From Jaapia argillacea MUCL 33604 (Eukaryota > Basidiomycota > Agaricomycetes > Jaapiales > Jaapiaceae), in the NCBI GenBank assembly GCA_000697665.1, contig KL197724.1, positions 322,373-386,372 of the forward strand: a stretch of DNA of 64,000 bases, read 5' to 3'. The notes below the pieces were generated by a model. The model did no database searches and was not told where the DNA came from. It saw only the letters and a program-made list of their open reading frames with translations. Positions within the stretch are counted from its first letter, which is position 1. Each line of letters starts with the position of its first letter. This document shows positions 38 to 63,288 of the stretch, piece by piece. Both the position numbers and the translations under genes were made by a program.

Positions 38-669
38 TTGTGTGTTGTATTTCACAGACTTCTCGTTCTCGGTTTTATTAACGATCATATCTCCCCAGCT
101 CTTTACGGAGTCATCGTTGGCGCTGTCGGAATTGGCTCACTCGTCGTCCGGAATTGGGCCATCAAAGCGGTCCAATACACCACGTACGCGTGGGCTCCAG
201 TAGCAGTAATATCACTACTACTGGCGGCTTTTGTCCCAAGCTGCGTCCCATCTATCCCAGATGGCATCACGTCCAGGAATTCAGCGCCCCCAAAAAAACG
301 GATGGTTGGCCGTCTAATATCCGTCTATCTATTCTTCGGATTAGCGGCCTTCTATCACGACTGGGCCCTTGCCGCCATGGTTAATAACTACGTCGGAACT
401 GCTCACAATACCACGGTGATGATTATCTACCTGGTGTTCAAGCATTTGCTCCTTCTGGCATAACGTAAGTTTTCCATGAGGCATCAGGTGGCGTTACTGA
501 AGGTTCTGGACTTTTCACTTGTAGGGTGACCTGTTATAAATCATGGCGCAGAGCCCTCAATTACGACTGGACCAATGTCTGGGTCCTAACTTGTCTCTCC
601 TCCTTCATTGTGACTATCTTTGGACACATTCTTTGGGAATTTTTGGACGCTCTGGGAACCACTCATTAG
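38..669 (+). CDS. 3' end of a multi-pass membrane protein gene
   Basis: The gene is cut off by the window start. A probable acceptor (TTTCACAG at about 50-57) opens an exon that reads to about 430 and contains several hydrophobic segments and a short FFGLAAFYHDWAL stretch. That stretch resembles the segment around the conserved histidine of fungal wax-synthase/MBOAT-like acyltransferases. A good intron (GTAAGT at 465 to TAG at 524) leads to a last exon ending in TAG at 667-669, with a further membrane-like segment (VLTCLSSFIVTIFGHILW). The large exon and the splice at 464/525 are in different frames, so there is either a sequencing indel near 400-440 or a decayed gene. The family call is a guess. 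The membrane topology and the last exon are visible directly. Confidence 0.35.
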
Positions 670-1033
670 GTTACATATCTTGTAATATTATATCCCGTCC
701 TTGTCAATGCTTTCGGGGAACACTTCTTGGAACAATGGAACATCTTGCACATTTACATCTTCGGCATCTTCGTGTTATCAAGAAGCCACATCCTTCAGCT
801 TCTTGAATTAAGATCACACGAACCTTACAACCTTGTCTGATCATGCTCTGAACTTCGATCTTGTCGTCAAACAGTGGGACTTCATGACAAGATAAATGTC
901 TGTCATTGGGTTCAAGATACCAAGTCTTCGTGGAAAGAATAGAAAGCAGTATCACCACTGCTTTGCGACTGTACGGAAAATATAGAGTCCGTAGATTTGT
1001 ATTGCCCTAATCGACGTTGGACTTTGCTGCCTA
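670..1033. other. intergenic, no gene seen
   Basis: About 360 bases between the membrane-protein tail and the 3' end of the minus-strand repeat-protein gene, so a convergent 3' region. Short ORFs on both strands lack start or splice context. I see nothing to annotate. Confidence 0.5.
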
Positions 1034-4000
1034 CTAAAAACGCATGAACGGTAAACGTGGTATGCAAGACCCAAAATTTACACGGCACGTACCCTGCAAT
1101 TTCACGACGCGATGGGTTTCGACATCAATCAGTTCTATTGTCATGTTATTTTCATCGTCTCGACTCTTGAGATCAGGTCGGGAAGCCTTCATATGGGGGC
1201 GTTGGTGGTGGTCTTCATTACAATTTCGTCGCAGGTCAACGTTTTTCGGTTCATTAATATCCTGTACTGAGGATAGGGAGGACATAGGCAGGTTTTTTCC
1301 TCGAAGCGCGGCAGGAGAACGTCCCTCTTCGAGAGATTGGGACGATGTGGAAGATATTGCAGCCCATGAATCAAGTGCCTGTTTGTGACGCCTTGGCGAT
1401 CCACGAGAGTGGCTTGACTGTTCTTGACACCGAAGACATAAGTTCTCCGGGCGACGTCCTGGTGCTTGACAGTATGGAGAAGACACGGAATGCCAGCGAC
1501 TGAGGGATCCGGACGATGTAGATCGACCGCGGGTCCATTCTGTGACAGACTGGTAAGCATGTGGAGACTCTCAGTTGAAGGACAACAAAACCACTCACCT
1601 GGGCGATTCGGGATCCGAGCCGATATACGGCGTAAGGTCGACTTTGGCTGTACCTGTCGAGGTCTGCTGTCGGAGAAAGAAGGAACGGCGGGGATGGCAC
1701 TGCAGATGGAGCTAACTTCGTCTTCCAGCGAAGTTGATTCTAAGGAAGGAAGCCATCAGGGCCAGTGAATATCAGCGGTGAACTCTATACTTGCCTTCCA
1801 CGTCACCGAAGTTATCTTCCGTACAATCTGTTTCGCTGAGTCGACGGACGAAAATGAGCTCACGGGAGTCGACGGTCAAATGCTCCAAGCGGCTGCGACG
1901 AGCTTGCTTTGTGCAAATTGTTGCTACTTGTGAATTGTCTCCTATTGGAGACGCAGGTGACCTACGGAAGTCTACGCATCGCATGGTTAATCAACATCCA
2001 GCACGAAAGAAAAGGGAGCGACGCTTGCGATGCGCAATCAGGGAGGGTCGGGGGAAGAGCTATATTCGTTCTTGATGGGTACTTACGTTGAGGTATCTCT
2101 ACCTTGTGCAAGGCTTCGTCGTCTCCTCGGTTCAGAAGTGTTTTGTCTCCTTCGAAGATGTGATGCACAAAAGTGTCGTCCTCATCCCAATCGGAGACAT
2201 CTTCATCGCCGAAGGGCTGCACCTCATAGTAAGCGTCTCCGTCGTAATAAATAGGCGCAGATAGATCGGAGGGAGTTTGTCGGCCGTCAATAGTGTGTAT
2301 AGATCTGTCGTGAGCCTCGACATCGGACCAGGGGTTCCTCACGACGTCCGGTAACGTGTCACTGGATTTGTAGGGGACGCTCTCAATCCTCCGCGGTGGT
2401 GTCCACGGTCGTTCTTCTGTAATTTCAGGAGAGGATTTCCTCGCCAGAACTGGTGGTGGAATGAGAAAATTCTTTACTGAGGCATGATCGGAGGATTCCC
2501 CAGGGTCTCCTGGAGATATAATTGTCGGTCCTACGTGGTGGGCTTCTGTGAATTTCCAATGAGCCTGATTGTCCAATTCAAGCCGTCCATTCTGGTGGAT
2601 GGTGTGGCCTTGAAGGTTGACATGATCGTCTTGGTCCCGGATAAAGCACCTATCGCCGGATGATCCAGCTATAGTCTCACTCTTTACTCCATAACTCCAG
2701 AAAATACGCCGATCTGCGATATGGCCGAAATCAGAGGCGATCATGTGTCTGGCGATGTTCTCGCCGACCTACCATTGAATACGGGGTCACCAGAGGCTCG
2801 TCCACGATCTGGGTCAATTTCGAATCCACTACCTGAGTCGCTTGAGAATTCATCGACCCGATGCAGAGAAGGAACTCTAGAAGCGGCGTTCCTGCCTAGG
2901 TATCCGTAACTTGTAAGACCCAAGAAAAGGTTGACTGAAGCACACCAACATACCATTAGTTGGGCCTCTCGCAATGGGAGCAAGCGATTGTACCGCTTCC
3001 GGTCTGTATTGGATAAAGACGGCTGGAGTGTGGATGGGTTCCACAGCTTTTGGCTGGTGTTGCATGGCTACTTGCTGTCCCAGGCCAGTAATTTTGACAT
3101 TAAAGGGAATGGCACCTTGGTTCACTAATGGGAGACCAGGTGGCCTCAACATGATTGGAATGAAGGAACTATCCGTGCTGGATGTATCAATATCATCGAC
3201 CCAATGGACAGGCGATGGGCTTCTATCCACAGTTGGGATAGCAGGAACCTGCGTTGGTTCATGTCGCGTATGGGGTGGGACAAGTTGTACACCACGAAGA
3301 GGGGAGGATGGGACCTTTGGCTCAACGCAGTGGGTTTTTGTAGCTCTCCTCTGAGCGTGATGTTCGGATGCCGCAGGTCTAACCTGGTGGTAGTCGCCTC
3401 GGTAGGCTCCTCTTCCACGGTCTGAATCAATTTCAAATCTACTGCCAGAGCTATCTGAACAGTCATCGACCCAGGGCCGAGGAGGTTTCGATTCTGTCCC
3501 AAAAAGCCGTGAGATAGGAGAATTATTCCGACAGGACCGACCTACGAGTAAGCGGTTCTCCTCGAATGTTCCTGAACGGAGGAGTCTGCATGATAACAGA
3601 TTTGTTCCGGGGAGACGTAGGCTGCATACACTCCACCGCCTCAGAATGACTTCGCATTGGCATTTGTTGTCTAAGTTCGCCAACCTTGAGTTGTGGAGCG
3701 CCTTGGTTGGGAGATGGTCCAACAAGCGGTCGAGACATAATTGGGATAAAAGAGCTATCCGCACTTGAGCTATCGATATCATCTACCCAATGGAGAGGAG
3801 AATCATTAGCGGCGGTCTTCGTTCCTAATCGCCAAAAAAGTGTGAGCCTTCAGAAGAGCCTCGCTAGTACGAACGTACGATGAGATGGACCTCCTGCGAT
3901 AATTGGTGCATGAGGAGCCTGTGCTGTCTCAAGTCTCCTCTGACTGAAGACAGGTATTCTACCATTGATGTTTCCCACGACCTTGGGGTTGTGCTGGATT

Positions 4001-4407
4001 GACGCCTGTTGTCCAATCCCACCGGCGATGAACGTGACGCCTTGGTTTGAATGTGGTACATTAAGTGTCCGAAACATGATCGGGACGAAGGAACTGTCTG
4101 TGCTCGAGCTATCGATATCATCGACCCAGTGAACAGGGGACGCTGTCCGACGAGGTCCTAGAAATGAGCGACGAATGAGCGGGAATGCATATTGGCCAGA
4201 GAACACCCTCGAGCTACCATTGGCATGTCCACGAATTGACGTCTTGCGTGTCGCCCGAGCAGCATGTCCCCCAACAAACTGTTCCTTCATCCTCCATCCT
4301 GGGACCTCCGTCTGCATGATCATTCTATTTGCTTCAGATCCAATTGGTGTGGCATTCATCGTGGGTCTCGTCCTCTCAAACGTGACGTGGGAACCTCTGG
4401 AGAACAT
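1034..4407 (-). CDS. 974-residue protein with WVDD-type internal repeats, unknown function
   Basis: Eight exons on the minus strand: 3879..4407, 3546..3824, 2954..3492, 2773..2895, 2087..2713, 1791..1971, 1599..1739, 1034..1539. All introns are GT-AG and the total is 2925 nt, exactly 975 codons. The ATG at 4407 is the first in-frame ATG after an in-frame TTG. I do not recognise the family. The N-terminal half contains three copies of a roughly 90-residue unit with the core HWVDDIDSSSxDSSFxPIM, followed by a proline/glutamine-rich stretch. Two shorter serine-aspartate variants follow (WVDDCSDSSGSRFEI and VDEFSSDSGSGFEIDP). The rest is low-complexity and acidic, with no signal peptide or membrane segment. 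The last exon ends in a compact segment, MTIELIDVETHRVVKLQG. The clean frame across eight exons argues for a real gene. A disordered nuclear or signalling protein is a guess. Confidence 0.75.
3142..4138 (-). repeat. three diverged copies of a WVDD/DSSS coding repeat
   Basis: The copies lie at about 4077-4138, 3738-3798 and 3142-3214, each encoding WVDDIDxSSxDSSFxPIM. Each is followed by similar text with an NQG motif and a GQQ or RQQ motif. Introns interrupt the array between copies, so this is an old exon-scale duplication rather than a recent satellite. Confidence 0.75.
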
Positions 4408-5150
4408 ATTTCTCAAAACACGACTTGAGGAAAGCAAGGAAGGAGCAGATTAGGTATTGGAGGGCACGAGAGTGATGATCTTCACAGCAGGACAGCATAT
4501 TCGTCGTTATAAAGGGTCTCGGGAAGACAAGGCAACGTTGTCAAGAATACCGAGTAGCATAGAAACAGTCTGATGTCTTGTTTTTTGTTATCTCCACTTC
4601 GAGCGTGACAGGTAGGACCTTGTGGGTGCCATACAAGTTAACAAGGGAGGTGATGAACAAATGTAATTGTGGCAGTGGTCGAGGAAGCAAAAGTGGTACA
4701 TAACAACGTGGCTGGATGAGAGGCACCGGCGACAAATGACTTCAACTCTCAGGCCCAGCAATTCCCAAAGTCAAATATCAAGCACTAGTACTGGGGAGGC
4801 GCAATGCAATGGGAAATTTCCAGCGCCACCGTGCCAGTGGCTGATGTTTGTCCGTATATCTTTTTGTCTGAATGCAGTCAAGAACGCCAAGAAGATTTGA
4901 TGGTGACCACAGATAAGAGCGAAGGTCACACCAAGTCACAACAGAAATGTGGTCAGGATGATAGAGAGTCAGCGGTGACAGATATGATTTCAACTTTCAC
5001 CGAGGAAAGGGTACAGAACGGTCAGGTCTTTGAATTGTTCAAGCCAGAATTTTTCCAGAGGTCATGGGTGGTCGGAAAATGTTAGCTTGCGGGGAGTTCA
5101 GAGGGATTTTAGGAATTCTGTCTTGAACACTTTGATCTACGTCATCAACC
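4408..5150. other. intergenic, promoter side of the repeat-protein gene
   Basis: Upstream region of the minus-strand repeat-protein gene. A 93-codon plus-strand ORF at 4804-5085 has no homology I recognise and no convincing splice context. It runs into the sequence repeated on the far side of the gap, so I do not call it. Confidence 0.4.
5053..5150 (+). repeat. left flank of assembly gap, duplicated on the right flank
   Basis: These 98 bases match 5585-5680 (96 bases) apart from two single-base insertions (TTAGC against TTGC, CTACGTC against CTCGTC). The match runs right up to the N run on this side and begins right after it on the other. This looks like two contig ends covering the same locus rather than a biological repeat. 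Confidence 0.85.
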
Positions 5151-5584
5151 NNNNNNNNNNNNNNNNNNNNNNNNNNNNNNNNNNNNNNNNNNNNNNNNNN
5201 NNNNNNNNNNNNNNNNNNNNNNNNNNNNNNNNNNNNNNNNNNNNNNNNNNNNNNNNNNNNNNNNNNNNNNNNNNNNNNNNNNNNNNNNNNNNNNNNNNNN
5301 NNNNNNNNNNNNNNNNNNNNNNNNNNNNNNNNNNNNNNNNNNNNNNNNNNNNNNNNNNNNNNNNNNNNNNNNNNNNNNNNNNNNNNNNNNNNNNNNNNNN
5401 NNNNNNNNNNNNNNNNNNNNNNNNNNNNNNNNNNNNNNNNNNNNNNNNNNNNNNNNNNNNNNNNNNNNNNNNNNNNNNNNNNNNNNNNNNNNNNNNNNNN
5501 NNNNNNNNNNNNNNNNNNNNNNNNNNNNNNNNNNNNNNNNNNNNNNNNNNNNNNNNNNNNNNNNNNNNNNNNNNNNNNNNNNNN
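5151..5584. other. assembly gap (434 N)
   Basis: A run of unknown bases. Because its two flanks are near-identical, the true gap may have zero or negative length. Confidence 0.99.
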
Positions 5585-35792: not shown

Positions 35793-38324
35793 TCACCGGC
35801 TATGCCAGTAGATTTCTGGGACCCAACCATTTTCGCCCGTTTGTGCAACCAAGATGTGGAGATCGCCCATGTCAACTGATAGGGCGGTGATTTTACCAAC
35901 TACCAGTTCTTCGGAAACAGAATCGCGGAGAGCAAATGTCGATGTGAGCACCAAGGGCAACAGCCCACGTGGGCTTTCGGTAATCACGCCCCAGGTAGGC
36001 ACACATCCCACATATTCCGGTCTTCCGTGTAGATCAACATTGAAGACAATAGGCTCGTATCCTTTGCAACGCGTCAAATAGGTTGATAAGGGCATCCAAC
36101 GCATAGAGTCGATGGGCCCTACAAGGTGTTCGGTGTCATGGAGCTTATGTGGATCTGGCAGCCAGTAACACATATGTCCACCGTGTACCTGGAATATTTG
36201 AGCTGATCAGCTCGAAAACTGAAGGGTTGGAGATAGTACCTCATGTTTACGCGGCAGGTGGGACGTTTCTTGGTGGAGGCATTTGTAGATTCCACAACAG
36301 TACGCCGGTTGGGTGCCCTCAACGTCTCCTCCGAGAATGCTTTTGTGGGTGGGGGTTAGGGAGGATAGAACTTGCAGAAGTGTCGTCCATTTGCGGCCCT
36401 CGTACAATTTTTCGCCGGAGATGATGTCGATCATTTCGTAACGACAATCCCTGTCTAATTTTGCAACCTTCAGCAAGTCATCAACCGAACACTCCACCCT
36501 TCATCAATCTCAATCAGGATGTGTCCACAAGGGGGATAGGGGTTCCTCACCTTGATACAAGTTGTATCAACTTGCGACACAGGTTTCGTTGGGTCCTTGG
36601 TCGAATCTTGCGCAAAGGGAGGCTATTATCATAATGGTGTGGGGAGGTTTGAAAATTTGGGTTTGTGGTGGTGTTTGTATAAAACCCGAAGTAAAATTCT
36701 CGACAGAAGTCTCCCCAGAGTTGGAAGAAGGGGGTGGTATAAAGGACCAATGGAGAAAAGACGCGGGCCTCATAAGGTGTCATTATACCTGGTTGCCAAC
36801 AGTCATTCAAGACATCTCGGAGTTGACTTCGGACCGTGTCGCATATAGTCACGGCAATGTAATCAAGAGGCCAGTAGTCGATGGAAGAGAGGAGATCTTC
36901 TCGGAGCCATTCGATGGTCCCGTGAGGGCGGGGATCTGAACAGTGGTAGAAAAATCAGCCCGCCAGAAAACTCAGAGATGCAGCAGGAAACCCACCTTGA
37001 CGAGCCACGCAAACCTGTCGTAGAAGGGAAATGACGACAGATAACCAGGAATTGATCCCGTGCGCGTGGAGTGAGTAGATGCGAATCAGATTGTAAAGCA
37101 AACGTAGAAATATCCGGCGACAAAGGGGGTCTTCGGAGACAGCGTAGTATGCCCACTGGTCCAACAGGTTTTGCGGAAAGAGTAGTCCAATAGCGGGGTC
37201 GAAAAAGAGTGGTTCAAGTGGAAAGATGGCGGACGAGAGGCGAAACGCCACTAAGAGTTGAGTATCATGATTGCTATCGGTTGTGTCAGACGGCACACCT
37301 AGCGAGAAAGGACTGAAATGCTCACATGGACTGAGCGACAAGCTGTGAGAGAATTGCGAGTCGCGGCGCTTCGTTCCCAACCGCTGCTGGAATCCCATCG
37401 TATTTCTGGATGGTCGTCAAAGCCTCCGACTCTGACAAGCTGACCAACGCTCTCAACGAAGGCGAGAGCAGTATATCACGATCTGGATTTCTGGCGGGCA
37501 TTAACGATGCCCTAAGGATTATGTGCTTGACCGCGTCAGAAGTGTCAAGGCGTTCAAAAGTTTGTTGAAAGTGGGGAGAAACGGAAACTAGGGCGGAGAT
37601 ATAGTAAAGGGCCAGAAGTTGTGACTGAGGTTTCCGATGCCTAGTTATGGATGGGTTGGATGCGAAGAGAAAATCATGGGGAAACTGAGGAATACCTAAG
37701 AGCGCCGACGAGACGTCGGCAGAAACGATCAAATCTGCCAGATTCGATTCTGTCCTGAGCCCACTGACTCGGATTTGAGAGGTCTACTATGAGATCCTCG
37801 AAAGATGGAGTGGATCGAAAGACGTTCGGGATGCGAATTTTACCCAGCCATGGGGAGGTGGCCCGCGGATGAGAATGGTCCAGCATTTGAGCTACAACCG
37901 CAGAGGGGCCAAGTCCTATCATCTCTGCCACAGCGCTCAGCAGTCTTTCGACACTAAGACCTGCCCTCGCTAACCACTTGTCTAGAGTACAACCGGGGCC
38001 TACCAAATCCGAGGCTGTGTCATCGCTGTCACTCTGTACGTCGAAAGAGTGCGTGGCAATGAATCCACCCAATGGGTCGATGGCCAAAAACTCGACGAGA
38101 GTAGGACCAGAAACAATTCCGTGGCCTGCGGGTTTATGGCTGTGGATGAATCGGTCTAATCTCCTTCCGGCCTTGGAGATCAAACCGTCAACCGTTCGCC
38201 CTGGGCCTGGGGCATCGGAGACAGTGCTATCACTCTGGGCGGTAATGGAGTAAGTGGAATAGAGCTCGTCTAAGTCGTCGGAGTCTGCGAATTGGAAGTA
38301 GATCGGGATCGGGGAAGACTTCAT
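35793..38324 (-). CDS. 753-aa protein, N-terminus shared with the WW-like array proteins
   Basis: Six exons (37696..38324, 37326..37640, 36996..37273, 36551..36935, 36240..36498, 35793..36188) sum to 2262 nt, 753 residues. The exon 36551..36935 may contain a further frame-neutral intron starting at GTATAA (36788). The first exon has two copies of a motif: STVSDAPGPGRTVDGLISK, then DTASDLVGPGCTLDKWLAR. A matching motif occurs once near the start of the two array proteins at 53.8 and 63.3 kb (STVSNQSGVGRTLGELILA, STISNFPGVGRTLDRMLSR). The following exon (ALYYISALVSVSPHFQQTF) corresponds in place and pattern to the array proteins' ALRYISLLLCFRPDFKSIF. The C-terminal half is different (GTIEWLREDLLSS, WVPEIYWHSR) and has no WW-like units. 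Function is unknown. I read it as a third, diverged family member. Confidence 0.72.
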
Positions 38325-38827
38325 TCGGAGGAAGAGGATGAACGCAGAAAGAAGCAAAGAGCCAAAGAGTCAGAGCAAGAGGACGCCCTGCCTTTTATAA
38401 GGCTGTATCAGTCGAGACATCGATCGAAGGAGAACAAAAGCGGTGACAAATGCTGGAAAAGCTTTTGTAAAAACCGCAATTGTGTATTTTTATAAGTGGG
38501 GCGGAAAACCGGGTGCGGGACGAGCGTCGAAGACCATGAAGTTATAATCAACCGTTCAAGCATCAGGAATACTAGGTGTTACGGTAAGTAGCTGTAATGT
38601 ATCCGTCTCACCTACTAGTAGGGGCTGTGCGGGTTCCAAACCAAAGTGGGCATTTTCAAAACAGGACCAAACCAAGTAAACGCGCCACGCCACCGAATAT
38701 CGACGTGGACGCGAACTCTCAACGCTGTAGAACCAAAAGTCTGTTCTCAGCGACGCCTCAGCTTTTAGCTCAGCTTCTGTCAACCCACTCAATCTGCAAA
38801 CCCTTTGATGACCACAAGTGCACCGAG
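38325..38827. promoter_or_regulatory. divergent promoter region
   Basis: 503 bases between the outward-facing starts of the minus-strand family member (38324) and SPC3 (38828). TTTTATAAGG (about 38393) and TTTTTATAAG (about 38487) are TATA-like on the plus strand. The ORFs within have no support. Confidence 0.5.
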
Positions 38828-49588: not shown

Positions 49589-52500
49589 CTACTCGGCGGG
49601 GGTTGATTGACTGTCCAAAACTTCGGGACGGACGCGAGGATCTTGGGAGGTGGAAACGTTGGTGGCGATATTGAAGAAATACAATGTGTCGTCGGGCGAG
49701 ACCCGCATTTCCCACCCAGCAGGGGGTGGTACGGGATCAAGAACATCCGGGTGGGTTCGCGGATCCTCAAAGATGGCAAATCGAGTCTTGGGATCAATGA
49801 AATATGGGGTGCCCTTGGCTGAGAAACACATCTCCCACATGGTGGGTAGTGGTTCGGTCTTCAGAGGTGCTGGATCGATACGTGGGTCCTCGAATGTGGA
49901 AACTCGAGTCTTGGAGTTGAAGAAATACAGCACATCATTATCTGAAATCCTCATTTCCCAACCAGCAGGTAGCGCTCGTACATCGAGGATTTCGGGGTGA
50001 GTGCGCGGATCCTCCAATGTCTGAACTCGAGTCTCGGAATTGTAGAATACCAGGACATCATTCGGTGAAAATCGCATTCCCCACCCTGCAGGTAGTGGTT
50101 GTACATCGAGGAGTTCCGGGTGCGTGCGCGGATCCTCGAAGGTGCAAACTCGACTCCGAGAGTCGAAGAAATATGGGGTATCCCTGGACGAAAAGTCCAT
50201 TTCCCACCCAGAAGGCAGTGGTGGTCCATTGAGAAGTTCGGGGTGTGTGCGCGGATCCTCGAATGTGCAAACTCGACTGCGGAAGTCAAAGAAATAGGGA
50301 GTATCTCTGGAAGAAAAGTCCATTTCCCACCCAGCAGGCAGTGGTTGTCGATCGAGAAGTTCGGGGTGTGTGCGCGGATCCTCGAAGGTGTAAACTCGAG
50401 TCGCGGAATCGAAGAATACCAGGGCGTCCGTAGGCGAAAACTGTATTTCCCATCCTGTGGGTAGTGGCTGCACATCGAGAAGCTCGGGGTGTGTGCGCGG
50501 ATCCTCGAATGCGTAAACCCCGGTCTTGGAATCGAAGAATACCAGGACATCTGTAAGCGAATATCGCATTTCCCACCCTGCAGGTAGTGGTTGCATATTG
50601 AGCAGTTCTGGGTGTGTTCGTGGGTCCTCGAATGTGCGAACTCGAGTCTTGGACTCGAAGAAAGCCGGAGTATCCCTCGGTGAAAGCAGCATTTGCCAAC
50701 CAGCAGGTAATGGTTGCATATCAAGGAGATCAGGGTGAGTGCGGGGATCCTCAAATGTGTAGGCTCCAGTCCTATAGTCGAAGAAACATGGACTATCCCT
50801 AGGGGAAAACTCCATTTCCCACCCAGCAGGTAGTGGTTCCATATCGAGAAGTTCGGGGTGTGTTCGCGGATCCTCGAAAGTGCAAACTCGAGTCTTGTGG
50901 TTGAAGAAATACGGGCTGTCCTTGGGCGAAAACTGCATTTCCCACCCCGCAGGTAGTGGTTCAGATTGTTCGGGGTGTGTGCACGGATCCTCGAATGTGA
51001 GGACTCGAGCCTTGGAGTTGAAGAAATACGGACTATCCTTCGGTGAAAACTTCATTTCCCATCCGGTAGGTAGCGGCGTCGTATTGAGCAGTTCGCGGTG
51101 TGCACGCGGATCCTTGAATGTACGGACTCGAGTCGTAGAGTTGAAGAAATGTGGACTATCTTTAGGTGAAAAGTGCATTTCCCACCCAATAGGTAATGGT
51201 TGCATATCAAGCAGTTCGGGGTGTGTGCGCGGATCCTCGAATGTACGGACTCGAGCCTCGGAATTGAAGAAATATGGGATATCCTTAGGCGAAAATTGCA
51301 TTTCCCACCCCACAGGTAGTGGTTGCAAATCAAGCAGTTGGGGTGTGTGCGAGGATCCTTGAATGTGTAAACTCGAGTCTTCGAATCGTAGTATACCAGG
51401 GCATCCATAGGCGAAAACTGCATTTCCCACCATGCAGGCAGTGGTTGCATGCGAAGCAGTTCGGGGTGTGTGCGCGGATCCTCGAATGTGCGAACTCGAG
51501 TCTGAGACTCGAAGAAAGCGGGGTTACCCCTTGGTGAAAGCAGCATTTGCCACCCAGCAGGTAGCGGTTGCATGTCAAGGAGATCGGGGTGAGTGCGGGG
51601 ATCCTCAAATGTGTAGACTCCAGTCCTATAGTCGAAGAATCATGGACTATCCCTAGGCGAAATCTGCATTTCCCACCCAGCGGGTAGTGGTTCCATATCG
51701 AGAAGTTCGGGATGTGTTCGCGGATCCTCGAAAGTGCAAACTCGAGCCTTGTGGTCGAAGAAATACGGGCTGTCCTTGGGCGAAAACTGCATCTCCCACC
51801 CCGCAGGTAGCGGTACAAAAGGTCCGGTGTGAGTGCGCGGATCCTCAAATGTGCGGACTTCAGTCATGGAGTTGAAGAAATATGGTCTATCCTTCGGTGA
51901 AAACTTCATTTCCCACTCGGAAGGTAATGGTTGCATATCGAGAAGATTGGTGTGCGTGCGCGGATCTTCGAAAGTGCAAACTCGAGTCTTGTGGTCGAAG
52001 AAATACAGGCTGTCCTTGGGCGAAAACTGCATTTCCCACCCTGTAGGTAGTGGTACAAATGGTTTGGGGTGTGCGCGCGGATCCTCAAATGTGCGGACTC
52101 GAGTCGTGGAGTCGAAGAAATACGGGTTATCCTGAGGTGAAAACTTCATTTCCCACCCAGAAGGTAATGGTTGCATACTGAGAAGCTCGGGGTGTGTGCG
52201 CGGATCCTCAAATGTGCGGACTCGAGCCCTGGAGTCGAAGAAATATGGGATATCCTTGGGCGAAAACAACATTTCCCACCCCACAGGTAGTGGTTGTATA
52301 TCAAGCAGTTCGGGGTGTGTCCGCGGATCCTCGAATGTGTAAACTCGAGTCTTGGAGTCGAAGAAGCACGGGTTCTCTTTAGATGAGAGGTGCACCTCCC
52401 ATCCAGAAGGCAAGGGTACCATATTAAAAATCTCGGTGTGACGCCGCGGGTCTACCCTAGTCCGACTCTGGGTGGCGTTGTCCACATAATGCAACAAGTG

Positions 52501-53845
52501 TGATGGTTGGATCTGAACTTTCCAACCTGATGGCAATGTAGAGGACTCCAGGGATATAGGATGAATGCGCGGATCATCCCTTGTTTGGAGATAGTGGACG
52601 TGATTGAAGAACAAGACGGTGCCATCATCCATCGAAGGGGAAATTCCCCAACCACTAGGGAGATGACCAGCGCCATATGCCTCCCGTATTTTAGACTCTA
52701 CACGGGGATCGTAGGGGGACATGTAACCGGTGGACACATCGCGGAAGAAGATATGCGCAGGATGACCGAAGTGCATCTCCAAAGGGGGGGGAAGTGCACC
52801 GAGGGTGTATGCCTGATGTAGGAAGGGATAACGACCGAAGGGAAGGATTGTTGTTGTCTCGGGAGTTGGAACCTCATCCTTGGGGACTGCCCAAGATATT
52901 TCAAGTTCGGTCATTTCCAAACTCTGGAGAATGTCCTGAGTGAGCTGACTTTGCTCGAGGGTCGTCGATTGGACAATGATATTTTTTCGGCAAAATTCGA
53001 TGCCGAAAGAGATTTTGAGGAGGTCTTCCGCCATTCGATCAAAAACATCATGTTTAGCAAAGGCCGGCGAGGAATTCAAAATCAACAAGGCCTGCTCAGC
53101 TGCAGTGACAGCAGATTTGATTCCATCGTCCTCTTGAATGAACAGGAGGTTATCCCTGATGAATGACTGGAACCTCTCATTGCATTGAAGACCGACAAAG
53201 ATCGATTTGAAATCAGGCCTGAAGCAGAGGAGCAGGGATATGTAACGCAAAGCCGCTCTCTGATTAGATGAATGGACGATAACTCCCCTGGACATTGTAC
53301 TTACGATGAGTGAAAGCCATAAATGAGAGCAACCCTGAAGCTCACCTAAGATATCCGACAAGTCTCTCACAATCTCCAACAACCAACGTGTCGTCCTCCG
53401 CATTGTACATGAAATGAAGATACCGGCAAAGCTGACAGTTGGAGCAAGCCAACAGATGGGCACCAAGGTGATGCATCAGAGATCTAAGGATCAACGGTTC
53501 GGTGGGGTGCTTCCAGCATTCGTCAACTAGATTCCTCAGGGGTTGACTGCATCGGGTACAGAAAGCTTCGGATACCGTGCGTAGGATGCGGAGGAGGAGT
53601 CGATCGGGGGTGAGAATTATGCGCTTGGCGACCTCGGACATTGATTTTTCCACCCAACCCCCTGCCGCAAGAATCAGCTCGCCAAGGGTGCGCCCAACCC
53701 CTGACTGGTTGGAGACAGTCGAATTGGTGCTCGTTACGATGGAAAGCTCGTCGCCACTGACTGGCAGCTTTCTTCGAGTCTTGAATTGTCCACTGGGAAG
53801 TTCTGGCACTTCATCCTCAGATTCCGGTGGATGATGGTCCTCCAT
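49589..53845 (-). pseudogene. WW-like array gene, copy A (25 units; frame interrupted)
   Basis: Exon 1 is 53346..53845 (ATG 53845). Exon 2 starts at 53299 and would run to TAG at 49589. The N-terminal 270 residues hold the STVSNQSGVGRTL motif, a cysteine set (FCTRCSQPL, LLACSNCQLCRYLHF) that could bind zinc, and a helical region (FAKHDVFDRMAEDLLKI). Then follow 25 units of about 41 residues of the form LPAGWEMxFSPKDxxYFF, DSKTRVxTFEDPRTHPELLDM. The unit fits a WW domain (LPxGWE, aromatic pair, T, DPR), but the second tryptophan is Phe and the usual His is lost. The frame is broken twice. TGA at 51640-51642 replaces a cysteine codon (TGT in the sister unit), and a base is missing near 51339. 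The frame is otherwise open for over 4 kb. It may be a young pseudogene, or a working gene with assembly errors. I cannot tell which. Confidence 0.75.
49610..52672 (-). repeat. tandem array of 25 WW-like coding units (~123 bp each)
   Basis: Each unit carries GGATCCTCGAA or a close variant (coding for FEDPR) and CATTTCCCACC (coding for GWEM), at a period of about 123 bp. Units 8-10 (about 51.5-51.8 kb) and 15-17 (about 50.6-50.95 kb) are nearly identical to each other, showing a later block duplication within the array. The first two units are more diverged and retain H (FFNHVHY) or a different spacing. Confidence 0.9.
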
Positions 53846-53868
53846 GGAACGATAGCTGATGCACGGTT

Positions 53869-53924
53869 CTATGAAAGGCACAAAGTGGGTTTAGTCAGGG
53901 TCCGTCATTGAGCACTGCACTCAC
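53869..53924 (-). other. 5' UTR intron of array gene, copy A
   Basis: A GTGAGT donor at 53924 and a TTCATAG acceptor at 53869-53870 lie just upstream of the ATG at 53845. The same signals and surrounding text occur upstream of the copy B start (63288). Conservation in both copies supports a real leader intron and a common promoter layout. Confidence 0.6.
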
Positions 53925-53950
53925 CGTTAGGTAGTGGAAGGATAGCTGCA

Positions 53951-56519
53951 AACACAAGCCCCCGCACAACGCCCAGTGAAGAGTCAAATTGAAATCGCAA
54001 TCAGAGTTGAACAGAGGAGGGGTACATTACTTCTACTGATAAGGTCCCATTTGGGTCCCATAATTGGAACAATGAATCGGTTTGCGATATTGCATGTACA
54101 AGCCACGCCGGGCGATCCACACAGGTTTTTGTAACTTCACCGGGAATAACGTCCTTGTTGTCGTACATTTCAGGATCTACGTACTTCTCTCAAAGAGATC
54201 TCCCGAAATTTCACGACAGGACGAGTTGTGTGGCTGTCCTTGTATTCAGAGGTTCCTGCAGTTGGCCAGTTGGCGATACCTGCCGCCTGTACTAGTAGTG
54301 GACCCGCAACGCATCTCCAGATCATCAGCTAAAGCTATTCGACATCCTCATGAGACCAGCCTCGTCCCCCTCGTCTGCACACACCTCCCAGCTGAAGTTT
54401 TTCTTGAGAGCTTTGTCACGTGGGTCCAAGGTCAGACAACCCGTGGCAACCGTCCTTCCCCCACTCTATACGACGAGATGTAATTCGAAGTTGTCCGAGG
54501 AGGTCTGAGGCGGTGCATTTGTTCTCGATGAGAGACGATCGCGTGAGTTTTCGTTGTGTTCTTTATCATGTTTTTGGGTGTCCTTTGTCCTTTTTCCCGC
54601 CCTCACACAATTGGAAGAAGCCCCGATTTCTGCTGATCCTGTCTCGATGATACAGATCAGCGACGTGTGATGTTCTGATGATGATGCTCCACGCAACATT
54701 CATCTCATCCAGGTCTCCCTTCCTCCCACTATCCTCCATAGCCCAAAGAAACTCAACTTTCCGAACCCAAAATCTCCTCCACTACTGACCCAAAACCTCA
54801 CAAACCCCATCGCAGACCTCGACGCCTGTTTCCTCAGGTGACATACAAGCCAAGAGGAACTTGCCACATGGGACAGTTTTTGTCTGGAGTAAGTCCCGCC
54901 CTTCGTGCGTTCGCATCCTCCGTGATCAGGTCCTTTTTGGTTTCATACGGAGATCGTGATGATGTGCGTTTGAGGACACGGTTGACTGCTAGGAGGTCCC
55001 AGAACGATGATGATGCACATTCTCAGGCAACCGCGACATACCTACTTTTCGAGGGAGGTACAATATGAGCTTAACGAGAATCGCGCTGAGTTCTGGTGCA
55101 CCTTCTTTCCATTTCTATTCCTCCTCACCCTCGCTTGTCTCTTCATCGCTGAATTTACTCCCACCTCTCATATTGTAGACACGCTCATGCTGACCCCGCC
55201 CAACAGGAACGTTTCACGCTCGAGAGAAAGCACATATACTGGCACGTTCCCCTCAGCGCCTAGCTATTGCAATCATGTGTAGGGATCAGAGCAAGTATCG
55301 GAATAATGGTGCTCTTTCCCCTCTCCCTCTCCCTCTCCCCACCTCCTCCGCTAACATAGTCTTCACAGGTTATCACAGAGTACGCCTTCCCTTCCCTTCC
55401 CCTCCCTTCCCTAATGTAATCCAAGACCTCCTGCGAAGCGGTTAATGAGAGAGCGAGAGAGGGTTTAAGCCGGATGACCCTCAACCTCGGAGATTATTGA
55501 GATTTTGGAGGTTTGGGTTCGACCCGTTTGGTTTTGGGGTTCGGTCGGTGACTTGGAGAGGGTGCTTAAGGGTATATGTGTCCTCCACGACATCTGGAAG
55601 CCTTGAGGGGGGAGCTCCTCGTGGGATCGATGTCGGGTAGTCGGGGATGGTGATCATCATGCGAGGTGTGCTCTTTTGAAATACCCTTCGTCGGTATCCA
55701 CCCACCATTTTTCATTCTCAGTCTTCACTCTGTCAGGCAAGGGCGCTGATGAACTTCTTGATATTGCAATTAGGGAGAAACGAAAGTTTAATACTTAGAC
55801 GGCCTCACAGACGTACGTCTCCACCATGTACACTCATCGACCTCCCATCCAGACAGGGGAGAAATGTTGCTGATCTCCTTTCAACTCAAGTGTTCTACTT
55901 GATCTCTCGATGCATTACTAAAGTCGAAAGCCGTGTTGTTGATTCTTGTCTCTCCCCTCTTTCTCCTTTTCTCTCTCTCTTCCGTTCCATTCCGACTCGA
56001 CCGTTTTTCCCATCCCTTCACCTCCCTCTCCCTCATCCACGCTCCATCACTCATCCAAATCGATGACCTTGTTGGGCACCGTTCGTCGGACCAGGCCTAT
56101 TTATCCTGTTTTTCTTCCGTTCTGTCTCTCTCGTTGGACCATTTTCCCGATGTTAAAATTTGTGGTACAATCCGTTGGTCTTGGGTAGTCGGATGGATAT
56201 CAACTTTTCTCGACCTATTCCGAGGAGTGAACCACAGTCTCAGAGTCACACGCAAGTTTGAAATCGTGTGTGCAAATCGCAGAGCCTGAAAGTCAGATTC
56301 TCGGAATGCAAGGCAGCGTTTGCTGTCAGACATCACAAGGTAAAGGATGCCCGGGCACAGGTATAATATTCAATGGGGATCGAGAGGCCGGTGGGACATT
56401 GAAGAGATATGACGTTGTGTCGTGTGGAGAATGGTGGTATTTGCGAGCCACGAAAAGCGAGTATATGCTTGTCGAAAAGCGAAAGAAAAGAAGGAACGTA
56501 TGGAAACCAGACGTACGGC
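53951..56519. other. 2.6 kb between the duplicated segments, no confident gene
   Basis: It holds the upstream region of array gene A. A plus-strand ORF at 54838-55068 (SPALRAFASSVIRSFLVSY, then LRTRLTARRSQNDDDAHSQ) looks more protein-like than its surroundings but has no domain I recognise and no clear splice partners. A GT donor at its end could join it to further text. Pyrimidine-rich low-complexity tracts lie at 55315-55410 ((CCCTCT)n) and 55930-56050. No transposon ends are seen at the borders. Confidence 0.35.
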
Positions 56520-57370
56520 GATCCACATTGTGATTGAGTTGAGGTTGGGGAGTCCCAAACACTAAGTTATTCCGATCTTGAAGGAGGACAGCTTGGTCGT
56601 CGCCCATTCTATGACCGGAGATCTAAAGGAATGGAGAAGGGGTTAGTTCCAGAAGTGTACAGGGAGGCCGGGGTGAGAGGGGGTGAGAGTGGGATCGGGA
56701 GGCTGACCGATGAAGGAGATGCGAATGCGAAGAGATCGATATGCACGAAAGTACCATCACTCTAACCATTGGTCATCGACAGTGACAACCGAGTTTTTGG
56801 TCTCCTTCCACCCCAGTGGATTCTGCAGTGGTTGTTGGCGAAGGACAGGTGTCAGTTCATGTCAAGTAAGGGCAAACAGGTTGAAGAGAATGCAGAAACA
56901 AGGACAAGCCGGTTTGGATGGAAACTTCACAGCAAGAAGAACTGGGCCACAGACAGTTCGAAGGCAGAGACGACATCGCGTCCAGCCGTCTGAACGCGTC
57001 GATGGTCCAAACCTTCATTTCGGCAGACTTCCCGATCTCCATTCCATTCCTCCCTCAAGCTTGCCTCAACGTCAACTCTATCACACCTTTCCTAGCTAAG
57101 ATGCAACTCAAGTACTCACTTCCACTCATCCAGGGAAAGATCACAATCGCTCCCCACACTCTGGCCCACCCGATGTGTGGGTGAATCTTCCACAAATCCA
57201 CTCTCCTAATATTGGGTGAGCAGGGTTGTAGATACCCCCAAAGGTGAGCGTCGGGAGATGTGCCTGGGATGGGTGGTTGAGAGTCCTGTTGGGTTGACTG
57301 GGACCTGGGTTGCTTGGCAGTTGGCCACCCGTTTCGGTTTCGGACAGCTGGAGCAAGCGGGGGCATCATT
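56520..57370 (-). pseudogene. decayed 5' fragment of the FHA-kinase gene
   Basis: Three blocks match the working gene at 44.3-47.6 kb. 57130-57370 matches exon 1 ([30 protein letters not shown]). 56765-56860 matches the FHA exon with its HW motif. 56520-56615 matches the exon GDDQAVLLQDRNNLVFGTPQ. An extra T (GATTGTGATC against GATGTGATC) throws the FHA core VGRSVGSD out of frame, and the block matching DHSSNGTF has lost its reading frame. No kinase-domain sequence follows. The copy is therefore truncated and broken, a by-product of the segmental duplication. Confidence 0.82.
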
Positions 57371-58976
57371 TGGGGCTGAGGGTGCTGAGGGAGGGGTTGT
57401 GAATCGTAGAATGAGTCGTCGAGTGGAGACAGCAAGGGTTCGCAAGCGATGACCTCCAAGGGGTCGGTGCAGAGGTATGATATGTCTGTCTTTTTGAAGT
57501 CCAATCGTCAACTTATCCGATTCCTTTGCTTGCAGTACCATCCCATTAACCGAGTCGCCCGGGGAGAGCGCCAAGCCTGCCTTATTTCTTGACCTATACT
57601 CGGATCTGGCCCAAGTCCAATAATACACCCATACCCAAGAACTCTCATCTGGTCTCCATTGGCAGTACCAAATTCAACACGTCAAGAGTTTGCTGACATT
57701 CATGTGATGACACTTCGTTGTTCATTCTCTTGACGAGACGTTGCGGTGATCACAAGAGGTACCCCGCGAGTCCTCTTCAAGTCCACCCCTATCCGCTATT
57801 CCTCAAACGAATCCCACCACACGTCCTTTTGGTACGCATCTCTGACTTCCCATCTTACTTTTCAATTCTCTATCGGTGGATACGACCATCCCTTCAGACC
57901 ACACAGGTATTCTAGGTTGTTTTCCATTCACTGAGTTGATTGACTAACGCCTACGACTTGTCGAATGCTTAGACTCTCAACGTCAGCTTTCCCCCTTCAA
58001 ATGATGCTACGACATCCACCGAACCAGCCAACCACCGGACGACGACCGTGTATCTCCGAATTCTTAGGTCCTGTCGGAGCCAGCCATAAATACAGCTGAA
58101 GCACCCGCCCTCCACGCATCCTTGCGAGGATATAGCGTCATCCTCCACACCTCAGCATGCGATATTTTCAGATGGAGCTCATCGGTGGACCTCCCTTGTT
58201 TTCCATCTGAACGCGCGATTCTCTCGACGGAAGGTGGATATTAGCGCCCTCCTGCAATCAGACGGAGTCATTCTCAAGCTCTTCTTCGTTCTCCGTGTTC
58301 TCCCCTCTTATCAACACCCCCCATCACGAAGAGACTGCTGAATAACGTCGGGAGGTGTGTTCGACTGGCAACCTGTCAGGTCCGAACGTGTATCTCCCTT
58401 GCAGAACAAGCATACCTCTTCCACCTCATCTTGCCCTCCCCGTTTACTCCCTTTCCCATCTCTCACCTTCCCTTCTCCCCACCATCTTGGCCTTCTGACT
58501 GGGAACCGCCCATTGTAATACACTGCCCGCCTCTCCTGTTCTCTTGTACTCCATTTGTCGAATGATTTCGGTGATGATCAATTAAATGTCGTCCTGTCCA
58601 TTGGTCGTTGGTGGTCGAATCGATCTCGTGTGCTCTCTACCAAGGCCTTTGTGGGTTGAACGGGAATGAGTGAACTCCACTCCGCGTATATGGTGCAGCT
58701 GCCAAAGTACTAATTCAATAGTATACAACTCCTTTGAGTTACGTACGAATATGGAACACAAGGTATGGTACGGGTGAGTCGCAAGATCAAGAAAGACTCG
58801 TTCTCTTAGTCCAGATTCGTATTTACTGTCAGAAGATCGGAGGTCAATGGTGGCGGTGTAAAACAAAACTGAAACATGAGAGATAACATCCTGATATCAG
58901 CGATTACGAAGGAGTGAATACCGGTCGAAACGGGAAGGGAGCTCACAAGAAACCAGGTAGACTGGATGATGTTTGC
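57371..58976. other. about 1.6 kb, decayed counterpart of 47.6-49.6 kb
   Basis: It shares blocks with copy A (for example GTGGATACGACCAT near 57880 and 48592, and CACCGGACGACGA near 58032 and 48747). A plus-strand ORF at 57746-57934 (FWYASLTSHLTFQFSIGGYD) reads like an old exon. Stops and indels differ between the copies, so no shared intact frame exists. I read it as non-functional. Confidence 0.4.
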
Positions 58977-61900
58977 CTACTCGGTGGGGGGCGGTTGGGT
59001 GTCCAGAATTTCGGGACTGAGGCGAGGATCTTGGGACGTAGAAACTTTGGTGGCAAGATCGAAGAAATAGATCGTGTCGTCAGGTGAGATCCGTACTTCC
59101 CACTTAGCAGGGAGTGGTCCGAGATCAAGAACGTCGGGGCATGCACGTGGATCCTTAAAGGTGGCAAATCGAGTCTTGGGATCGAAGAAATATGGGGTAC
59201 CTTTAGATGAGAAGCACATCTCCCACACCGCCGGTAGTGGTTTGGTATCGAGAGGTGTGGGGTAGATGCGTGGGTCCTCGAATGTGGCAAGTCGAGTCTT
59301 GGAGTCTAAGAAATACAGCACATCATCATCCGAAATCCTCATTCCCCACCCAAGAGGGAGTGGTTGCGTATCGAGAAGTTGGGTGTGTGTGCGCGGATCC
59401 TCGAATGTCCAAACTCGTGTCTTGGACTCGAAGAAAGCCGGGGTATCCCTCGGCGAAAGCAGCATTCGCCACCCAGCAGGTAGTGGCAGCATATCAAGGA
59501 GGCCGGGGTGTGTGCGCGGATCCTCAAATGTGTAGACTCCAGTCCTGTAGTCGAAGAAACATGGGCTATCCCTAGGCGAAAACTCCATTTCCCACCCAGC
59601 GGGTAGTGGCGGCGCCTCGAGAAGTTCAGGGTGTGTGCGCGGATCTCAAAGTGTACAAACTCCAGTCTTGGCGTTGAAGAAATGTGAGGTATCCCCAGGT
59701 GAAACCCACATTCGCCACCCAGCAGGTAGTGGTTGCACATCAAGAAGTTCAGGGTGTGTGCACCGATCCTCGAATCTCGAAAATTTAGTCATGGAGTAAA
59801 AGAAATGTGGGGTATCCCTGGGTGGAAATGCCATTATTTGCCAAGCAGGTAGTCGTGGCATGTCGAGAAATTTGAGGGGTACGCGCGGATCGTGGTACGT
59901 ATGGGCTGCAGTCTTGTAGTTGAAGAAATATGGCCTATCCTTGGCCGAAAAGTCCATTCGCCAGCCGACAGGCAATGGTTGTGCATCGAGGAGTTCGGGG
60001 TGTACGCGCGGATCATCAAATGTGTGAACTTCAGTCTTGGAGTCGAAGAAATACGGGCTATCCTGAGGTGAAAAGTGCATGTTCCACCCATCAGGTAGTG
60101 GTTGCCTATCGACAAGCCCGGGGCGCATGCGCGGATCCTCAAATGTGCAGACTCGAGTCGTGGAGTCGAAGAAATATGGCCTATCCTTAGGAGAAAAGTA
60201 CATATTCCACCCACGAGGTAGTGGTTGCCTATGGAAACGCCCGGGACGCCGCCGTGGATCCTCAAATGTACGGACTCCAGTGTTGAAGTTAAAAAAATAT
60301 AGGCCATCCTTCGGTGTGAATTCCATTTCCCACCCCACAGGCAGTGGATTCATATCGAGAAGTTCGGAATGTATGCGCGGATCCTCGAATGTGCGGACTC
60401 GAGTCTTGGAGTGGAAGAAATATGGGCTATCCTCAGGCGAAAACAACATCTCCCACCCTGTAGGTAGTGGATCCATATTGAGAAGTTCGGGGTGTGTGCG
60501 CGGATCCTGGAATGTGCGGATTTGAGTCTTGAAGTCCAAGAAGTGCGGGCGATCCTTCGGTGAAAAGTCCATGTCCCACCCCACAGGTAGTGGATCCATA
60601 TTGAGAAGTTCGGGGTGTGTTCGCGGATCCTCAAATGTGCGGACTTGAGTCTTGGAGTCGAAGAAATATGGACTATCCTTAGGTGAAAACCGCATTTCCC
60701 ACCCGTCAGGTAGTGGTTGCATATATAATAGTTCAGGATGTGTGCGTGGGTCATTGAATGTGCGAACTCGGGTCTTGGAGTCGAAGAAATACAGGCTATC
60801 CTTCGGTGAAAACAACATTTCCCACCCTGCAGGTAGTGACCGCATATTGAGAAGCTCGGTGTGTGCGCGCGGATCCTCGAATGTACGAGTTGCAGCGATT
60901 TCGTTGAAGAAATATGGCCTATCCTTAGCTGAAAAGTCCATTCGCCACCCGTTAGGTAGTGGTTGCATATCGAGAAGTTCAGGGTGTGTACGCGGATCCT
61001 CGAATGTGCGAACTTGAGTCTTGGGGTCAAAGAAATGCAGGTTATCCTTAGATGAAAACCACATTTCCCACCCCGCAGGTAGTGATTGCATATAGGGAGG
61101 TTCGAGATCTGTGCGTGGATCCTCGAATGTGCGGACTCGAGTCACGGAGTTGAAGAAATATGGGGTATCCTTCGGTGAAAAGTCCATTTCCCACCCTGCA
61201 GGTAGTGGATCCATATCGAGAAGTTCAGAGTGTGTGCGTGGATCCTTGAATGTGCGGACTCGAGTCTCGGAGTTGGAGAAATATGGGGTATCCTTCGGTG
61301 AAATGTCCATTTCCCACCCCGCAGGTAGTGGTTGTATGTCGAGCAGTTCGGGGTGTTCGCGTGGACCCTCGAATGTGTAAACTTGAGTCTTGGAGTCGAA
61401 GAATACTAGACCATCCCTAGTAGACGAAAACCCCATTGCATAAAGCCGCACTGCCCACCCCACAGGTAGTGGTTGCATATCGAGGTGTGTACGCGGATCC
61501 TCGAATGTGTAAACTCGAGTCTTGGAGTCGTAGAATACCAGGACATCCCTTGCCGAAAATCGTGTTTCCCACCCTGCAGGTAGTGGTTGTATGTTGAGCA
61601 GTTTGGGTTGTGTGCGCGGATCCTCGATTGTGTAAACTTGAGTCTTGGAGTCAAAGAATACTAGACTATCCCTGGGTGAAAACCGCATTTCCCACCCCAT
61701 AGGTAGTGGTTGTACGTCGAGCAGTTCGGGGTGTGTGCGCGGATCCTCAAATGTGTAAACTTGAGTCTTGGAGTCGAAGAAAACCAGACTATCCCTTGGA
61801 GAATACCGCATTTTCCACCCCCCAGGTAGTGGCTGCATATTCAAAAGTTCAGGGTAACGCCGCGGGTCTACCCTCGTCTCTACCCTCTCCCCACACTGTG

Positions 61901-63288
61901 TGGTGTTGTCCACAAAATACAACAGGTGTGGATGCAGAATCTGAAATTTCCATCCTGCTGGCAATGTAGTGGACTCAACAGATATAGGGCGAATGCGAGG
62001 GTCGTCCCTTGTTTGGAAATAGTGGATGTGATTGAAGAACCGGACAATGCCACCATCCATTGATGGGGAAATTCCCCAACCACTAGGGAGAGGGCCCGCA
62101 TAATATTCCTCCCGTACTTTGTACTTTATGCAGGGGTCATAGGGGGATGTGGAACTGGTGGACGTGTTGAGAAAGAAGATATGTGCAGTATGACTAAAGC
62201 ACATCTCTAAATTGGGGGGCAGTGCACTGTGGGTGTATGCCTGATGTAGCAAGGGATAACGACGGAGGGGAAGGGCGGTTGATGCCTCGGACTCAGCCAC
62301 AACCTCGTCGCTAGCCAGAGAATGGTCGAGATGGAGTAGCATAGATATTGCATCTTTGGTCACTTCCAAACTCCGAAGAACACCCTCGGTGAGGCTGCTT
62401 TGCCACTCAATGGTTGTCGATTGTGCGGTGATATTATTTCGATGAGATTCGATGCTGGAAGAGATTTTGAGGAGGTCTCCCAACATATCGTCGAAGATGT
62501 CATCTCTGGAGATGATTGAGGATGAATCAAGTATTGAAGCGGCCTGCTGAGCGACAGTGATAGCATATTCGATTCTAGGGTCATCTCCGACGAATAGGAG
62601 GTTATCCTTGATGAAAGACTGCAACGTCTCGGCACATCGAAGGCTGACAAAGATTGACTTCAAATCAGGTCTGAAGCAGAGGAGCACGGAGGTGTAATAC
62701 AAAGCCGCTGTGCGATTGGATGGACGGACAGTGGTCCCCCTGAACATCGTACTTATGATGAGTGAAAACCAGACATGAGAGCAACCATGAAGCTCACCTG
62801 AGATATTCAACGAGTTTCTTGCAATCCTCAACAACCGACTTATCGTCGTCCGCATGGTACATGAAATGAAGATACCGGCACAGCCCACAGTTGGAACAAG
62901 CCAGCAGATGGGCACCAAGGTGGGGTATCAGAGACGTAGGGTCTGGGGGTTCTCCGGGGCGCCTCAAGCATTCGTCAACTAGTTTCATGAGGGGTTGGCT
63001 GCATCGGTTACAGAACGCTTCGGATACGGTGCGCAAGATACGGAGGAGGAGTCGATCGGGGGTGAGAATGATGCGGCGGGCGACCTTGGTCAAGGACTTT
63101 TCCGCCCACCCGCCTGCTCGGGAAAGCATTCTATCGAGGGTGCGCCCGACGCCAGGGAAGTTGGAGATAGTCGAATCGGTGCCCGTTACAATGGAAAGCT
63201 GGTCGGCACTGACTGGCAGCCTCCTGCTGAATCGTCCACTGGAAGGTTCTGGCACTTCATCCTTAGATTCGGAAGGGCGACGGTCCAT
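58977..63288 (-). pseudogene. WW-like array gene, copy B (25 units; one in-frame TGA)
   Basis: Exon 1 is 62798..63288 (ATG 63288). Exon 2 starts at 62751. The first 1,198 codons are open, then TGA occurs at 59646-59648, then the same frame continues to TAG at 58977. The N-terminal region matches copy A: STISNFPGVGRTLDRMLSR, FCNRCSQPL, LLACSNCGLCRYLHF, ALYYTSVLLCFRPDLKSIF. Twenty WW-like units precede the TGA and five follow. The TGA stands where other units have GAG (Glu of FEDPR). It arose from a compensated +1/-1 change (TGT ACA CTT TGA against TGC ACT TTT GAG), so the frame downstream is kept. Loss of five units might be tolerated, giving a 1,198-residue protein. That makes this copy the better candidate for a working gene. 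It has no signal peptide or membrane segment. Function is unknown; repeated ligand binding is the natural guess. Confidence 0.75.
58990..62098 (-). repeat. tandem array of 25 WW-like coding units, copy B
   Basis: Units of about 41 codons encode LPxGWxMxFSPKDxPYFF, DSKTxVxTFEDPRTHPELL. Unit 6 carries an insertion (LYAMGFSST) and unit 5 is short by a few residues. Unit 2 keeps a longer loop. Unit 19 has lost the GW. The array is the same length in units as copy A, but individual units do not all pair one to one, so exchange within arrays has continued since the duplication. Confidence 0.9.

Follow-up and report, generated by a model that had tools for sequence, protein, structure and literature searches.

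The window, meaning the whole stretch of 64,000 nucleotides that was analysed, corresponds to positions 322373-386372 of contig KL197724.1 (C16) of the Jaapia argillacea MUCL 33604 genome (43.7 Mb in 95 contigs). It contains two tandem arrays with a period of 123 bases (TRF scores 2256 and 1950), carried by two minus-strand genes about 5 kb apart, gene A at 53845-49589 and gene B at 63288-58977; both are included in the span 49589..63288, which is bounded by the end of A and the start of B. Runs of N occur at window positions 5151-5584 and, just past the window end and beside gene B, at positions 74-3709 of locus L009. Gene models were built from reading frames and copy-to-copy comparison, and the two genes are alike in layout, with an N-terminal helical module followed by three divergent units that are WW-like and then by 23 regular ones, each of about 41 residues. 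In gene A, exon 1 (53346..53845, ATG at 53845) encodes the helical, cysteine-bearing N-terminal module and is followed by a modelled GT-AG intron of 58 nt (53288..53345), whose position and length are the same in copies B, C and D. In both genes exon 2 starts with a stretch for which helix is predicted with very low confidence, ahead of the entry units. The three divergent entry units of gene A (52444..52794) were recognized by sequence pattern, the matching stretch of gene B being unreported by Pfam, and its array of 23 regular Phe-type WW units (49634..52413) by the TRF period, PF00397 and unit alignment. The corresponding features of gene B are exon 1 with the N-terminal module (62798..63288, ATG at 63288), a modelled 58-nt intron placed by copy comparison (62740..62797), three divergent entry units seen by sequence pattern (61860..62222) and 23 regular Phe-type WW units (59022..61829), delimited in the same way as in gene A. 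A preliminary description of this DNA, made from its letters, had reported two genes, each with about 25 tandem units of about 41 residues marked by LPxGWE, a PYFF-type core, T, TF and DPR. Units of this kind are present in both minus-strand arrays, and their number stands as 23 regular plus three divergent entry units, but in this assembly neither array reads as one open frame.

In gene A an in-frame TGA lies in unit A07 (51640..51642), with 715 aa up to the TGA (three entry and six whole regular units). The frame of this gene also changes by one base between A09 and A10, near 51340, placed by frame comparison at 51333..51345; past this change the gene is open as far as 49589. Gene B has an in-frame TGA in unit B18 (59646..59648), with 1194 aa up to the TGA (three entry and 17 whole regular units), after which the frame is open again until a stop at 58979-58977. 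No additional stops were found in the long array remainder of either gene. As both long copies are interrupted in the assembly, their present products may be shorter, at 715 and 1194 aa. Loose GT-AG introns able to remove a TGA amounted to two candidates in A and seven in B, and in a control such candidates were equally common at unbroken units. None of the TGA-removing candidates has a branch-site match, but the four modelled introns all lack one too, which makes this test void. The existence of TGA-removing introns in A or B is, from the sequence, neither supported nor excluded.

Two additional copies, C and D, lie outside the window (L010 ~687-4453; C16:396.8-400.6 kb), where an in-frame fusion makes them a single open gene (1216 aa) in the order N-terminal module, seven WW units, N-terminal module, seven WW units. 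With four plus four regular units its arrays are short. This open frame assumes that two modelled 58-nt introns are spliced, the first of which ends in AAG, and the fusion has lost the end of one copy and the start of the other. The copies of the cluster thus contrast with one another, both long arrays being interrupted and the short fused gene open.

Past the breaks in the two genes, dN/dS came to 0.39 over 127 codons (Fisher p 0.0009) and to 0.114 over 82 codons (p 7e-8). This sequence shows purifying selection and not long free decay, although selection that acted before a recent break would leave the same trace; it follows that the breaks either arose recently, are bypassed or are errors of the assembly. 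These values bear on whether the cluster is decaying, its array once functional and genes A and B now pseudogenes, which we consider unlikely. The TGA and frame change of A, the TGA of B and the loss of two gene ends at the C-D fusion are all in keeping with such decay, but the stop-free remainders of both arrays, the low dN/dS (with the ambiguity just given) and the N-terminal frames, open in 4/4 copies (A to D), speak against it. Another explanation is that both genes are intact and that errors of assembly or sequencing account for the breaks. Repeats assemble poorly, past each break the frame resumes immediately, and the signal of selection is continuous; against this, three separate errors would be needed and the stretch around the gene B stop differs from its neighbours at several bases, and we regard errors as quite unlikely.

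The regular units score far above the PF00397 cut-off of 26.9 bits, with 278.9 bits for the B array up to its stop and 264.4 bits for the A array after its frame change. An AlphaFold2 model of three consecutive units (pLDDT 93.6, pTM 0.81), computed with an alignment of the array's own units only (30/34 unbroken triplets, B01 to B04 being left out), has three-stranded sheets with a linker helix between neighbours, and single units of the model superpose on ITCH WW3 and WW4. Judged by profile and predicted fold, the regular units are true WW domains, as the preliminary description had proposed, and the missing second Trp is no bar to this membership because Phe members are known. When the three-unit model was compared with known structures in Foldseek, the tandem WW domains of KIBRA, YAP, SAV1, MAGI2 and PRPF40A were matched; these have two WW domains each and their overall arrangement fits poorly (query TM about 0.3, ranging from 0.25 to 0.31). 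Since known WW tandems fit the model poorly as a whole, a rod formed by the array is a matter of prediction. The entry units have no Pfam match across 289 aa of gene B, except at the end of the third, and the third entry units match a typical regular unit weakly (E 1.6e-4 to 0.012). The pieces of A and B that were scanned with Pfam gave no match to HECT or C2, the second exon of gene A up to its TGA lying outside the scan.

The N-terminal module has no Pfam match in the scanned pieces of the array genes and of other family members. A search of the genome with exon 1 returned 75 places at E up to 1 and 29 matches at E up to 0.001, of which four belong to the array cluster and 25 lie elsewhere, several of them on C25 and C14 (also C38, C45) and two sharing one frame. 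By coordinates, no PF00397 match lies less than 100 kb from any of these 25. Members of the N-terminal family have the motif S-x-x-S...G-x-G-R-T in common. A further gene of this family, with two GxGRT motifs (36207..38369, minus strand; E 0.011 against exon 1), is located about 11 kb from gene A, and WW is absent in the four pieces of it that were scanned. The N-terminal region had been taken as a sign of a distinct protein class: it has no Pfam match, but with 25 other genome matches that have no WW nearby, the module is by sequence comparison not special to arrays. The name "armadillo-like" is not claimed here for its helices.

To locate the ligand-binding residues, groove and pocket were mapped onto the units by YAP residue numbering. 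Residues of genes A and B were counted in 45 of the 46 regular units in a gap-free alignment, and cluster-wide counts cover 53 of the 54 regular units of A to D; B04, which has an insertion, was left out of both. At the second-Trp position the 45 units have F in 39, L in 2, S in 2, I in 1, Y in 1 and W in 0, the Phe codon being TTC in 26 and TTT in 13, while the first Trp is present in 44. The pocket His is retained in three of the 45, all in gene A (A04, A06 and A13). Both the Phe in nearly every unit and the loss of the His had been described before and are borne out by these counts. Across the cluster, the second Trp occurs in 0/53 units and Phe in 47/53, and the fold core (first Trp, core aromatic, final Pro) is kept in 52/53. 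A groove made of Tyr plus an aromatic residue (F, W or Y) in the place of the second Trp is found in 30/53 units. The pocket His is found in 3/53 and the aliphatic pocket residue in 5/53, and the full set of groove, pocket His and aliphatic residue in 0/53, with A04, A06 and A13 combining groove Tyr, aromatic and pocket His. The earlier proposal that the ligand site is altered thus agrees with the residues of the pocket. Its premise that WW domains keep two tryptophans does not hold, since the HECT-proximal WW domains of the NEDD4 family carry Phe or Tyr; at the corresponding place WWP1 WW4 reads TTTFKDPR and ITCH WW4 TTTYIDPR in PDB sequence-match alignments.

According to a report on WWP2 WW4, Phe472 replaces the usual Trp in this domain, the groove consists of Tyr461 and Phe472, the pocket consists of Val463, His465 and Arg468, and despite the Phe the domain binds the PPxY motif of Smad7 (PMC6801763). 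The idea that Phe alone means a lost ligand is ruled out by this example. Because WWP2 WW4 has Phe and binds PPxY, Phe is a known natural state, and the informative change in our units is, as read from their sequences, in the Tyr pocket and not in the Phe. The same example raises the possibility that the units bind in the ordinary way of Phe-type WW domains such as WWP2 WW4, and that the array is a multivalent PPxY binder or decoy, possibly a competitor of RSP5. The groove of 30/53 units and the three that keep His as well would suit such a role, and in WWP1 the PY site of WW4 is reported to accommodate an IxY motif (PMC6639328). However, the pocket His in 3/53 units, the aliphatic pocket residue in 5/53 and the full set in none argue against PPxY binding, as does the H517A mutation of WWP1 WW4, which is reported to severely impair contact with HECT (PMC6639328). 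We give this alternative a low probability.

Selection was estimated from divergence among copies and units; these estimates are limited by gene conversion, shared history and a crude method. Between copies, exon 1 had NG86 dN/dS values of 0.351 to 0.51 (6 pairs), and the part of exon 2 ahead of the regular units had values of 0.361 to 0.609 (6 pairs). Among 43 units (A07 and B18, which contain stops, and B04 being left out), pN/pS taken over all pairs was 0.47. At the Phe position nonsynonymous change was low (pN 0.087, pS 1.05), while at the groove-Tyr position (pN 0.433, pS 0.448) and the pocket-His position (pN 0.387, pS 0.312) it was as high as synonymous change.

The best PDB sequence matches of the units are ITCH and WWP1. 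When a typical unit was searched in the genome, 68 places were found, 58 on C16 and 10 on C7 and C42. The units were then compared with a reference of seven WW units from the two HECT loci of the genome, seven other WW loci being left out. In this nearest-unit test 45/53 array units were closest to WW3 of the C42 gene (47.8 with ties split), and 34.2/53 when the Phe position was removed; the identities are modest, at 18/31 for C42 WW3 vs 17/31 for C7 WW2, and the test is weak. The C42 gene is RSP5-type, with three WW domains and a HECT piece on the same strand. The third WW of this gene (L013 2538-4939) reads TTTFDDPR, with a natural Phe where the second Trp would be. The RSP5-type gene on C7 is adjoined by two more WW-bearing stretches that look like diverged copies (L012 7994-8677; C7:372442), the second of which scores 13.9 bits, below the WW cut-off. 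Within the arrays, A07, A14 and B19 share 94% identity, which points to block duplication.

Among known systems, WW4 and the WW3-WW4 tandem of the NEDD4-family proteins ITCH, WWP1 and WWP2 resemble the units in having Phe or Tyr at the second-Trp position. In those proteins, however, the WW pairs stand beside a HECT domain and keep the pocket His, whereas the arrays have 23 regular units per gene, His in 3/53 and no HECT match. For WWP1, WW3 and WW4 are reported to pack closely, and WW4 to hold an IxY motif in its PY site (PMC6639328). Fungal RSP5 (C2, three WW, HECT) is also similar, as the WW3 of C42 carries Phe and is the closest match for most units; three WW domains were counted in 207/226 RSP5 proteins (PMC5913265). 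It differs in possessing C2 and HECT, while the array genes begin with a different N-terminal region and gave no match to either domain in the scanned pieces. Among the titles and abstract openings listed in a literature search, with most subscription journals outside its coverage, none describes a WW array this large. Phe-type WW domains are already known, and long arrays of units whose Tyr pocket is mostly lost are an unusual form of this module.

Taken together, the reading that we favour, at a little less than an even chance, is that of a lineage-local WW array that grew by duplication and mostly lost its Tyr pocket, and that would most likely serve as a scaffold or spacer or bind a ligand other than PPxY; such a role is put first because the core and the Phe are kept while the Tyr pocket is lost. 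It is possible that a tandem cluster of paralogues joined a helical N-terminal module common in the genome to WW units, which may have resembled the Phe-type WW that stands next to HECT in an RSP5-like ligase. Later duplications, of single units and of blocks, would have lengthened the array until A and B had 23 regular units each. The WW fold is predicted for every regular unit, and short helical linkers may join neighbours into a long, perhaps rod-like scaffold. The fold core and the Phe would have been maintained by selection, whereas nearly every unit has probably lost its pocket for the Tyr of PPxY. The array may thereby act as a scaffold or spacer, or may bind proline-rich or other non-PPxY ligands through the groove kept in 30/53 units. 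A stronger version, in which a peptide-binding domain has turned into a structural repeat of a fast-evolving family, its core kept, its Tyr pocket lost and its linker helices forming a rigid superhelical rod of more than 20 units, draws on the predicted structure and appears improbable to us.

For studies of WW domains in general, Phe at the second-Trp position must not by itself be taken as a loss of binding. If the proposed reading is true, the cluster would be a natural case of a signalling module that became a building block, and its 54 diverged regular units would serve as a natural library for learning what this fold requires when its binding site is relaxed.
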